From Tubiluchus corallicola (taxonomy: Eukaryota; Priapulida; Priapulimorpha; Priapulimorphida; Tubiluchidae): 64,000 bases of DNA. Below are positions 7,531 through 55,500 of this stretch, in pieces. The notes beneath the pieces were generated by a model, which saw only the letters and a list, made by a program, of their open reading frames with translations, had not been told where the DNA came from and did not search any database. Where the stretch lies: NCBI GenBank assembly GCA_030141605.1, contig JAQGDQ010000683.1, forward strand, positions 1 through 64,000, in the 5' to 3' direction. The position numbers were made by a program, and so were the translations under genes. Numbering within the stretch: the first letter of the stretch is position 1; every line of letters begins with the position of its first letter.

Positions 7531-10500
7531 GTATGAAAGATACCTTGTTTCATTAGATCAGGGGTGTGCAAATTATCTGACTAGCCGGGCCACATTAAAC
7601 TTTCACGCAATTCCTGCAGGCCACAGGCAGTTTGATCAAGGAGCCAAGTACCGAAAGGCCTAATAATGATTTTTTTGCATCCGATTTGCGTACATCATTA
7701 CTACTACACTCAAGAAACTATTTTAGAACTTATTAAAATTTATATTACAAACCATATATTTCTACTTTCAGGACAGATAGTGGTAATTTCATTACAATGC
7801 GTATTAGTAGTGTGTATCACACAGTCTGTGTAGTACAGTGACATTAAGCTACAACCGTCTTGTAAGGGTTAATGGCATCCGATCTAGTAGAAAAAACTAC
7901 CCGCACTATCTTTGGGATCGTGGCACGGACTTCAGCTGGATACACTCAATTAATCGCCCGGGCTGCACTTTCATTAGGTTGACAAATCTCTTAGCGGGCT
8001 GCACAAATTCTCTGGGCGGGCCGCAATTTGCAAACCCCTGCACTAGATGATAACTGTTAATAGCTGTTTATTATGTAGTAGGTGTGAGCATCGAACGTTC
8101 GAATTCGATTCAAACAAGTTTGTTTAGTTCGAATTCTATTTGAACCTAAAATTATAAATTCGAATAATTTAGCATTTCAACTACATACATTTCCAATCCG
8201 TAAAACGTTTGAAACTTCATGCAATTAGCACAATTTTGCTATAATTTCTGGATACAATTTTTAAATAAATTATTGGTGATTTTACTGCACAACAAAATCG
8301 AATCACGTGCATAATCTCTGTAAGACCGCTTCTTACCATTGGTTCGAAAATCTTTCAGCGTTCGAATTCGAAATACCGAAATTCGATTCGATTCAAATTT
8401 GAAAGTCACAAATTCGATTCGTTTCGAATTTGTTTTCTAGTAGAGAATGCTCAGCCCTGTTACGTAGTACTGTGTAGTTTTATGTACCGTATTTTCCCAT
8501 GTATAAGAGACCCTTGTGTATAAGAGACCCCTTCAATTTTTAGGCAAAAATTCTGGAAAAAAGTTTTTTGGTAATGAATAACTTTATTCATCATAGAAAT
8601 CATTAAATTCCTCATCACTCTCATCAAAAATATCAACTGGAGTCAGACCTTCAGCAATTCCAGCCAGTTCATCATCAGAGGAGTCACTCTGCTCAAAAAT
8701 GGCATTGTCCTCTGTGCCGTCCATGGCATTGGAGATGCCACACTTCTTGAAAGATTTAATAATGACCTTTGGTTTTTTGTTGGGGTGGTTTGGGTTGGTT
8801 TTGTTGGTTTTTTGTGTTTGGAAAAAAGGGTCTCTTATACATGGGAAAATACGGTATTTAAATGATTCAATGATTAATGTACACACACGTGAATTTAGTG
8901 TGAGTATCAGTATTTAAGAATTCAAACTTTAACTACTGGTTTTAAAGTCGTACTGCCGCTGTTAATTATTTTTTTACGAACTCAGACATTTCATGTTATT
9001 GTCATTATGAAAGCTTAGTATGTGATTTTTCAGAAGAGAGCAGTTTAGTATTCCGTATTCTAGTCTCCCTCTATGCATCAGCCAATGCAAGTTTCCGTTG
9101 CATTTTATGACTTTATAAAACGAAATGAATGAATTGTTTATGAAAGGATCAGAAGTTATCACATCCGTATTGCTCTACATTTCAGCTCATAGGCTGGAGT
9201 ATCCTCACATGCATCAGCCAATGAAAGCCCTGCATGAACATCATCCTCGTCACAAACCTCACAAGCAGAAGCGTAGAAAATCTCGTGGCACGGAGGAGGC
9301 TGCAGGAGAGCCACCTATGGTGAGTTTAAGCAACTTACTTCTTGATGTTTGGAAATGGTACCGTTACAAAGTTAATACCTAAATTGTACCATTTACATAT
9401 ATATATATATATATATGTAAATGGATATAAAGACTATTTATTATTGTTGTTGTTGTTGTTACTACGACGACGACGACTACTACTACTACTACTACTACTA
9501 CTACTACTACTACTACTACTACTACTACTACTGCTACTACTACTACTACTGCTACTGCTACTGCTACTACTACTACTACTACTACTACTACTACTACTAC
9601 TACTACTACTACTACTACTACTACTACTACTACTACTACTACTACTACTACTACTACTACTACTACTACTACTACTACTACTACTACTACTGCTACTACT
9701 ACGACTACTACGATGACGACGACTACTCCTACGACTACTACGACTACTACTACTACTACTACTACGACTACTACGACTACTACTACTACTACTACGACTA
9801 CTACTACGACTGCTACTACGACGACGACGACTACTACTACTACTACTACTACTACTACTACTACTACTACTACTACTACGACTACTACGACGACGACGAC
9901 TACTACTACTACTACTACTACTACTACTACTACTACTACTACTACTACTACTACTACTACTACTACTACTACTACTACTACTACTACTACTACTACTACT
10001 ACTACTACGACGACGACGACTACTACTACTACTACTACTACTACTACTACTACTACTACTACTGCTACTACTACGATTACTACGACGACGACGACTACTC
10101 CTACGACTACTACGACTACTACTACGACTACTACTACTACTACTACGACTACTACTACGACTGCTACTACGACGACGACGACTACTACTACGACGACGAC
10201 TACTACGACGACGACGACAACTACTACTACTACTACTACTACTACTACTACTACTACTACTACTACTACTACTACTACTACTACTACTACTACTACTACT
10301 ACTACTACTGCTACTACTACTACTACTACTACTACTACTACTACTACTACTACTACTACTACTACTACTACTACTACTACTACTACTACTACTACCACTA
10401 CCGCTACCGCTACCACTACTACTACTACTACTACTACTACTACTACTACTACGACTACTACTACGACTACTACGACTACTACTACTACTACTACGACTAC

Positions 10501-52500: not shown

Positions 52501-55500
52501 TAATTTTTATATAAACGCAGTTTAACGCAAAGATTTAGTCAGCTAGAACTGCGGAAGTTTGTTACCATCAGCTTACGTCTTTTTTTTCAAATATGCCCGC
52601 AACGAGGTTTGTTTGGTAGGAGAGATAGGTTTGTAGCTTCGTAGAGAAACTGTTGATTAAATATCTGTACGTTGAATTTCTGATTTTGCATTTCAAATTT
52701 ACATTTCAGGCTCATAATAAACAAAAAAGAACGACAGCTTAAGAAAGGTGGCGGGTATCACCTGGACATGTTTATCATCGGTCAGTTTGGCTTCCTGAAT
52801 GCCGCATTAGGATTGCCATTTACCTGCGCAGCTACGGTCAGATCTGTTGCTCACACGTCTTCCTTAACTTCCATGTCAAAGACGCATGCGCCCGGTGAAA
52901 CGCCTAGGATTACTGGTGTTACGGAACAGCGAGTGACGAATTTTGCTGTCAGTATTTTACTTGGTAAGTGCATTGTAGACGAACTTAGTTGTCAGTATTT
53001 AACTTGGTAAGTGCATTATAGACGAACTTAGTTGTCAGTATTTAACTTGGTAAGTGTATTATAGAAAAACTTAGTTGTCAGTATTTAACTTGGTAAGTGC
53101 ATTATAGACGAACTTAGTTCTCAGTATTTAACTTGGTAAGTGCATTATAGACGAACTTAGTTGTCAGTATTTAACTTGGTAAGTGCATTATAGACGAACT
53201 TAGTTGTCAGTATTTAACTTGGTAAGTGCATTATAGAAAAACTTAGTTGTCAGTATTTAACTTGGTAAGTGCATTATAGACGAACTTAGTTGTCAGTATT
53301 TAACTTGGTAAGTGTATTACAGACGAACTTAGTTGTCAGTATTTAACTTGGTAAGTGCATTATAGACGAACTTAGTTGTCAGTATTTAACTTGGTAAGTG
53401 TATTACAGACGAACTTAGTTGTCAGTATTTTACTTGGTAAGTGTATTACAGACGAACTTAGTTGTCAGTATTTTACTTGGTAAGTGTATTACAGACGAAC
53501 TTAGTTGTCAGTATTTTACTTGGTAAGTGTATTATAGACGAACTTAGTTGTCAGTATTTTACTTGGTAAGTGCATTACAGACGAACTTAGTTGTCAGTAT
53601 TTAACTTGGTAAGTGCATTATAGACGAACTTAGTTGTCAGTATTTAACTTGGTAAGTGCATTATAGACGAACTTAGTTGTCAGTATTTTACTTGGTAAGT
53701 GTATTATAGACGAACTTAGTTGTCAGTATTTTACTTGGTAAGTGTATTATAGACGAACTTAGTTGTCAGTATTTTACTTGGTACTTACTTACTATATACT
53801 TACTGTACTAAAGTATATTAAAATTATTTATAGTTTGTTGAAATTGCCAAAACCTTAAATGTTTTTTAACTATATGTTTTTAAATAATATTTACTATCAT
53901 CTAGTTTTAGGTAGTAATTACAATAAGCAATGCCAGCAGTATTACCACTATTAGAATGCATGTATTTATATACTACTGTATTATCTGTGCTAAATCTGTG
54001 AATGATGTTTACAGGCGTATCAATTTTAATGGGGCCTGTACTGAATAAAGTACCGGAAGCAGTATTGTTCGGAGTCTTCCTTTACATGGGTGTTAATTCG
54101 CTAAATGGGATTCAGTTAGTTGATCGGTTCTTCATGATGTTCACGCCTCCGAAATATTTTCCTGACGTGGGCTATGTGAAAAGGGTAAGTAACTCATTCA
54201 GGGCAGCACCACTCAAGATAGGTCTTATAGGACCTGTGACTTTTCTGCTACTGTATGAGCACCAGACATAACTAAATGATTACAAATTAGCCACTCTTCT
54301 ATTTAGGAGAATCTTGGCTATGCAATCATGTTATTTGCTTTAAACATATATGAGTAATTTAATTGGATAAAATTAAGAAAAACGCGCCCTTTTCAGGCAC
54401 ATTTTCGCCTCCGTTAAATTTCACTTTATTAATAAAAATTATAATTATTTTTGCATATTTGTTTTAACAGTACAAGTAATCGTAAAATTTTGGCTTTAAG
54501 GCTAGAGCTATTGCTTTGAAATATTTTACATTGTACAAACTTTTGAATTCTCAGATAGACAAAACTTGTGAAGACCTGTGTACGTTCTTTTTGTTTGTTT
54601 ATTTTTCTTTGTAAATATCATATGAATATTGTTTCAGTGCTAACATATTACTGTTCTGATTATCATAATTTTTCCAGTTATTAATACCGTCGGTTAAATC
54701 TTAAGAAGCACCTCAGATCAAATTCTCAATACTGAAACATGAATCGATGCCGATCACATTTTGCTTTCATTCTTACAGGTTCGGACATTCAAAGTTCATT
54801 TATTTACGGGAATTCAGATGATATGCATGGGTATCCTGTTTGCCGTCAAATCGACCGTTGCCGCTCTCGCCTTTCCGTTCATACTTATCTTAATGGTTCC
54901 GCTACGATACAATCTCAAGTGGATTTTCACTCCTGTTGAACTAGGAGAGGTAAAAGTGATTCCCTATTTGCTTAGTGTCAATTAGATTGATTACTGATTA
55001 TTGATTAGTGTCAATTAGATTGATTATTGATTAGTGTCAATTAGATTGATTATTGATCATTGATTAGTGTCAATTAGATTGATTATTGATCATTGATTAG
55101 TGTCAATTAGATTGATTATTGATTAGCGTCAATTAGATTGATTATTGATTAGTGTCAATCAAATTGATTATTGTGCATCTAGTTTGCATTAGTTCGTATG
55201 CATTAATTGCTCAGAAAGTTTTTCAAATATGCAATAATGGTAGACCATGATGTATTGTCATGTGATTCAGTAGACAAAACGTTTGTGAATAACCGTCTTC
55301 CTATGAACATTTTGCACCTTAACTTCACTTTATGATCAAGAATATCAGAAAATTTGTGTCAAATGTTGATAGTTTTTATACATTTGAATAGAAGCAGCCT
55401 GTACCAGACATTTCTCGGTCAATTAAGCGACTGATCTTCCGCGAGTCTAATAAATGGCACCCACTGTATTTGAATCTTTGTTTACGTGTGTTATAGCTTG

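Follow-up and report, generated by a model that had tools for sequence, protein, structure and literature searches.

The DNA analysed here, called the window, comprises 64,000 nucleotides of the priapulid Tubiluchus corallicola (assembly GCA_030141605.1, contig JAQGDQ010000683.1, positions 1 to 64,000 of the forward strand). The genome assembly contains 343.5 Mb in 2344 contigs, among which the contig of the window is numbered C877. The window harbors an SLC4 anion-exchanger gene with tandem arrays in many of its introns. The results presented here reveal that minisatellites in this gene are crowded just past the 5′ splice sites (donors), and that a few of the arrays span exon-intron junctions.

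Host gene

The host gene is an SLC4 anion exchanger, and its nearest sampled relative is Priapulus. Among the best 120 of 7808 protein matches to a query assembled from the exons, the top two are anion-exchanger (AE) proteins of Priapulus caudatus, at 54-56% identity; the remaining 118 have 43-49% identity. A PDB search with the window protein returned AE2, AE3 and band 3 as the first matches. In a tree of 27 rows, none of them from a nematode or a kinorhynch, the window protein and a second copy from the same genome, paralog B, group with the two Priapulus proteins (support 100/99).

When the two Priapulus proteins were used for spliced alignment and some junctions were adjusted by eye, a model of 26 exons separated by 25 introns was obtained. 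A first-pass annotation of this DNA had proposed 30 and 29; four of its exons were not confirmed. The exon at 21478-21570 was placed by eye only, from its reading frame. The model places both of its ends, as well as the start of exon 21950, 1-2 bases off the splice consensus, which does not affect the counts. The exon starting at 19558 ends at the first of a series of repeated donors, 19896. This end was used in the donor placement tests of minisatellites, and the second donor, 19938, was used in the tally of 33 arrays, the counts of arrays with a score of at least 100 and the acceptor tests. Introns 12174-19557 and 33841-39956 possibly contain further exons, in which case their true lengths are below those used and the expectations reported below are slightly too low. 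The joined reading frame of the 13 3′-most exons (41631-55574) contains 0 stops. A motif search of the initial 9.6 kb of the window did not reveal the 5′ exon predicted from Priapulus, and Rfam gave no matches at gathering scores.

Placement of arrays

Tandem Repeats Finder (TRF) produced 65 rows in the window, from which 33 separate arrays inside modelled introns were obtained. Their placement was compared with a null in which the number, length and intron of the arrays are held fixed (200,000 draws). Among 24 arrays scoring 100 or more, 13 begin no more than 130 nt past a donor (5.55 expected) and seven no more than 20 nt (0.97 expected), whereas four end within 130 nt before an acceptor (5.55 expected). 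The excess is also evident for minisatellites, defined as arrays with a period of at least 10 and a TRF score of at least 100 (n = 21). Twelve start within 130 nt past a donor versus 4.82 expected (p = 1.5e-5), and seven within 20 nt versus 0.86 expected, a number that 0 of 200,000 draws reached. Three of these seven begin inside the exon, one of them on the final exon base, and nine of the 12 donor-proximal minisatellites are wholly intronic, 5-120 nt past the donor. Removal of the three junction-spanning arrays leaves nine of 18 minisatellites within 130 nt of a donor versus 2.99 expected (p = 1e-4). When footprints of 6 nt at donors and 60 nt at acceptors are excluded for these 18, the donor excess stays (p = 2e-4), so the skew is not accounted for by donors requiring less sequence than acceptors.

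At the acceptors of this gene there is no excess for the 130-nt distance. Four of the 21 minisatellites end within 130 nt of an acceptor versus 4.84 expected, two within 20 nt versus 0.86 (p = 0.21), and one overlaps an exon versus 0.04 (p = 0.04). The donor test is post hoc, concerns a single gene picked for its look, and takes its 130-nt threshold from the earlier annotation. Within the SLC4 gene the crowding of minisatellites at donors is real.

Most of what the first-pass annotation had reported on placement is borne out. It listed 14 introns with an array within about 130 nt of the donor; by our own exon mapping all 14 hold an array, and 13 of these begin within 130 nt, the array after exon 2 beginning at 140 nt (score of at least 100). 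The arrays said to start within 0-20 nt number seven. It recognized only one array pressed against an acceptor, but a second is found before exon 12078 (Table 1). As it had stated, the array units are mutually unrelated; only two triplet arrays share a 23-nt stretch of simple repeat. A common repeat family was rejected as the source of the units. Together, the placement tests and the unrelated units support its view that the effect within this gene is one of position rather than of repeat family.

Table 1. The SLC4 gene and its arrays in the window
Feature	Position	Strand	Description
SLC4 anion-exchanger gene	9186..55580	+	26 exons / 25 introns modelled; 5′ exon(s) not found
TAC triplet array	9460..10613	+	140 nt past donor 9319
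19-bp array	12000..12072	+	stops 5 nt before acceptor of exon 12078
45-bp array	12236..13470	+	62 nt past donor 12173
52-bp array	15552..17372	+	mid-intron; counter-example to donor placement
array	18634..19189	+	mid-intron, 368 nt before next exon; counter-example
42-bp array, ~37 copies	19871..21392	+	begins 26 nt inside exon ending 19896; exon end and donor repeated, GTAAGT x35
24-bp array	22867..23424	+	mid-intron, 177 nt before next exon; counter-example
31-bp array	23731..23962	+	44 nt past donor 23686
27-bp array, 12 copies	25289..25613	+	extends into exon starting 25605; acceptor repeated, with variation, in some of the units
39-bp array	28613..28806	+	5 nt past donor 28607
49-bp array	33078..33572	+	120 nt past donor 32957
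57-bp array	33895..34893	+	54 nt past donor 33840
40-bp array	40892..41089	+	mid-intron; counter-example
36/109-bp array	41887..42122	+	TRF rows begin 84-112 nt past donor 41802
AAC triplet array	42362..42609	+	54 nt past donor 42307
62-bp array, 22 copies	44584..45965	+	begins on last exon base; units start GGTAAG, GTAAGT x21
31-bp array, 22 copies	48680..49367	+	10 nt past donor 48669
29-bp array, 12 copies	51012..51369	+	18 nt past donor 50993
43-bp array, 20 copies	52935..53783	+	begins 29 nt inside exon ending 52963; exon end and donor repeated, GTAAGT x19
array, TRF periods 26 to 92	54968..55173	+	18 nt past donor 54949

Copies within the donor-proximal minisatellites are 91-99% identical in 11 of 12 cases and 86% in the other (best-scoring TRF rows). 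Within the 27-bp acceptor array, TTTTAGTCA occurs in four exact copies, the true acceptor among them. The 42-bp donor array is open in frame over its first copies (19897-19971), and the acceptor array is largely open in the frame of its exon (25399-25613). Judged from these frames, use of alternative splice sites in either array could insert short in-frame repeats. About 30-37 nt of the mid-intron array at 40892 are also found at a myosin locus (L055). A 43-bp array of 40 copies (4219-5952) precedes the modelled gene, and a 115-bp unit forms two arrays in opposite orientation (1-320 and 1587-1918; identified by eye from TRF rows).

Other exons and paralogs

The surroundings of exons elsewhere in the genome differ markedly from those in the window. 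Of 90 loci, 12 belong to the window gene and 10 are duplicates; without these, the survey covers 68 unique exons, from SLC4 paralogs, myosins and dyneins, each taken with at most 1.5 kb on either side (224 kb, with overlaps counted repeatedly). Minisatellites cover 24.8% of the window and 3.5% of the sequence around these exons, the latter with some bases and one 167-bp array counted more than once where loci of one gene overlap, and with arrays scoring below 100 left out. The exon ends are edges of family matches and guessed donors, unproven as splice sites; the frame closes near the end of the match in 67 of 68 exons, a weak check, as some matches span stops. On the donor side a single minisatellite starts within 130 nt (L055, 110 nt), and two microsatellites (L065 and L081) that also do so are outside this count. 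On the side of the exon start, three arrays end within 130 nt of the match (L003, L015 and L046, the last a hexanucleotide repeat with TRF period 12 in the surveyed orientation). Donor-adjacent minisatellites are thus found at 12 of 25 introns in the window versus one of 68 other exons (p = 1.4e-7). Although small and weighted toward conserved exons, this sample argues against a general state of donor crowding at the rate of the window gene. With one donor-adjacent array versus three acceptor-adjacent arrays, it gives no support to the general donor-seeding process proposed by the first-pass annotation.

The searches also bear on the assembly itself. Gene matches recur on C45, C2048, C2100, C2197 and C2212, on C379 and C1545, and on both strands of C917, and the assembly seems to contain redundant copies. 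A dynein heavy chain match (G000:C1957:71965-73170) lies within an open frame of 4097 aa, and nine Cpn60_TCP1 matches each span at least 445 of 490 family positions in one frame; these dynein heavy chain and chaperonin loci are apparently intronless copies. The SNF and Cpn60 family searches gave positions only and are outside all array counts.

Motif pairs were also counted across the whole genome. The donor word AGGTAAGT occurs at 18,866 single sites and in 2,019 pairs spaced 14-44 nt apart, versus 13,452 sites and 232 pairs for the reversed word; pairs amount to 10.7% and 1.7% of singles, respectively. The acceptor-like word TTTGCAGG has 18,789 single sites and 152 pairs, and its control has 5,498 and 31. 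The number of pairs per single site therefore exceeds control 6.2-fold for the donor word and 1.4-fold for the acceptor word. However, the first 100 of the 2,019 donor-word pairs are dominated by a dispersed 42-bp satellite, GGTA-like simple repeats and long single arrays. On contigs C1-C38 there are 14 donor-word clusters versus four for the control among the matches listed, and four versus three once GGTA-like and, for the control, TGGA repeats are removed and the 42-bp satellite is counted once. The genome-wide excess of donor-word pairs is suggestive only. The dispersed satellite, ~42 bp in unit length, was seen on C17, C26 and C38 and contains AGGTAAGT in many of its units.

The SLC4 paralogs allow the introns and the arrays to be dated relative to each other. 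Introns of paralog B end at the same Priapulus residues as those of the window gene in 12 of 12 cases compared, all in the 3′ half (12 of 25 introns). None of these 12 introns carries a donor-adjacent minisatellite (score of at least 100, within 130 nt) in paralog B, versus six that do in the window gene. Because the introns are common to both genes and lack donor-adjacent minisatellites in paralog B, the arrays must have been added after the introns. New introns were accordingly rejected as carriers of the arrays, all 12 positions compared being present in paralog B. Contigs C1914 and C1218 probably represent one further SLC4 paralog, D. On C1914 (L003, reverse complement 1-351) an acceptor together with the initial 24 exon nt recurs ~9 times in 38-bp units, and on C1218 (L020, 1992-3128) a 100-bp array of ~11 copies repeats the final part of the last coding exon, stop codon included. 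Junction arrays are therefore present on both sides of exons and in more than one gene copy. An allelic contig of the window gene was not recognized among the contigs of this assembly, C1914 and C1218 being too divergent from the window.

Interpretation

It is probable that the SLC4 gene underwent a local and fairly recent burst of independent minisatellite formation in old introns, biased here toward donors, with a local mutational cause rather than selection on splicing. The donor clustering, which holds with and without the three junction-spanning arrays, the difference in array cover, the unrelated units, the high identity of copies, the comparison with paralog B and the recurrence of junction arrays in paralog D lead to this reading. 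Each array would have begun as a short tandem duplication and grown by ordinary repeat turnover. A few duplications may have included the exon-intron junction and thereby produced arrays like the "mirages" of amphioxus, in which the donor recurs identically tens of times or the acceptor several times. Such arrays could survive if splicing at the upstream donor copy, or at the downstream-most acceptor, keeps the protein intact. Given that the donor excess is real in this gene, either seeding or survival would be donor-biased there. The favored cause is a local event, for instance template switching or the repair of breaks close to exon ends, within a region prone to arrays.

Some observations weigh against a local burst of this kind. 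A mutational signature specific to donors was not found. In nine of 11 non-spanning donor-proximal arrays, the flank reaching up to and across the donor contains no copy of the unit (p of 0.41 or higher). The array of intron 20 has a weak 14-nt unit match inside the exon (p = 0.035, uncorrected for 11 tests), and that of intron 14 has a strong unit match, located however 77-112 nt past its donor. Older copies concealed across donors were rejected. Mean G-skew is +0.04 for 14 donor-proximal arrays versus +0.09 for nine others (p = 0.83). In addition, the difference in footprint alone does not account for the preference for donors over acceptors, and the statistic comes from one gene, two of whose introns may hide exons.

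Chance placement in an array-dense region, in a gene singled out by looking, is unlikely. The high array cover, the arrays located mid-intron or near acceptors, and a threshold and gene chosen after looking are all consistent with chance, but the null already fixes the number, length and intron of the arrays, and the donor excess far exceeds it at both distances. Slightly less likely is a process operating genome-wide in this lineage that seeds duplications at 5′ splice sites through breaks, stalled polymerase or R-loops, with the SLC4 gene as one instance. The strong donor excess in the gene and the excess of AGGTAAGT pairs over the reversed motif, larger than the corresponding excess for the acceptor motif, are in line with such a process. 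However, the other exons have far fewer donor-adjacent arrays and three near exon starts, the motif excess comes from few arrays, and a G-skew signature is lacking. Indeed, the R-loops invoked by the first-pass annotation were rejected, as no G-rich non-template skew is specific to arrays near donors. A bolder version holds that some genes of this lineage, perhaps those with strong germ-line transcription, undergo transcription-linked duplication at 5′ splice sites that repeatedly seeds minisatellites at intron starts, as in nearly half of the introns of this gene; it is to be regarded as quite doubtful.

The first-pass annotation had also suggested that selection retains repeated donor-like, U1-binding sequence at intron starts, which now appears very improbable. 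The real donor is repeated in three arrays, and in these the donor hexamer has two variable columns of 18 versus 31 of 129 elsewhere in the units; the difference is not significant (p = 0.36). Moreover, when the best donor in each of 12 units was compared with shuffles, only two units passed at 5% (0.003 and 0.020), a third gave 0.09 and nine gave at least 0.24. Most improbable of all is that the introns were born by tandem duplication of exon sequence containing AG|GT, with the arrays as remnants. This model was put forward for amphioxus mirages (PMC3087553), but it is refuted for the 12 introns compared, all of which are found in paralog B without donor-adjacent minisatellites.

The presence of 19-35 identical donors beside the real one constitutes a natural test of how the spliceosome chooses among equal sites. 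A protostome with minisatellites across its exon-intron junctions would imply that mirages are not peculiar to amphioxus, and the donor bias, if it held in further genes, would indicate a mutational hazard at exon ends.

Relation to known systems

A search of titles and abstract openings, covering few subscription papers, found no arrays clustered at donors across one gene and no mirages outside lancelets. The nearest title (PMC2812944) reportedly concerns human duplicated genes whose structure is altered by tandem repeats.

Ordinary intronic minisatellites likewise consist of head-to-tail units of high identity that are unrelated between loci, but the arrays of the window gene are strongly skewed to intron starts. 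Intron gain by duplication of AG|GT-containing exon segments would similarly give repeated AG|GT-like junctions, whereas the window introns that were compared predate their arrays.

The closest likeness is to the mirage minisatellites of amphioxus, which two reports (PMC3087553, PMC3902484) describe as tandem duplications across exon-intron boundaries, on 5′ and 3′ sides, in Adh3, the globins BflGb6/9, troponin C and PGBD5; splicing is stated or suggested there to proceed undisturbed. The first-pass annotation knew of no described class that fits exactly, but mirages cover part of the arrays. Eleven donor-proximal arrays (two of them triplet arrays) begin 5-140 nt past the donor, do not span the boundary and are not classed as mirages; those that are donor-adjacent without including the junction are a variant of the mirage class. 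The boundary is spanned at donors by the arrays at 19871, 44584 (by one base) and 52935, at an acceptor by that at 25289, and by the two arrays of paralog D. As in the mirages so described, both 5′ and 3′ boundaries are affected, in the window gene and paralog D together, and splice signals recur in many units. Unlike the amphioxus cases, the window gene groups with Priapulus and many introns of one gene are affected. The junction-spanning arrays belong to a described class, and the present case extends mirages to a protostome.

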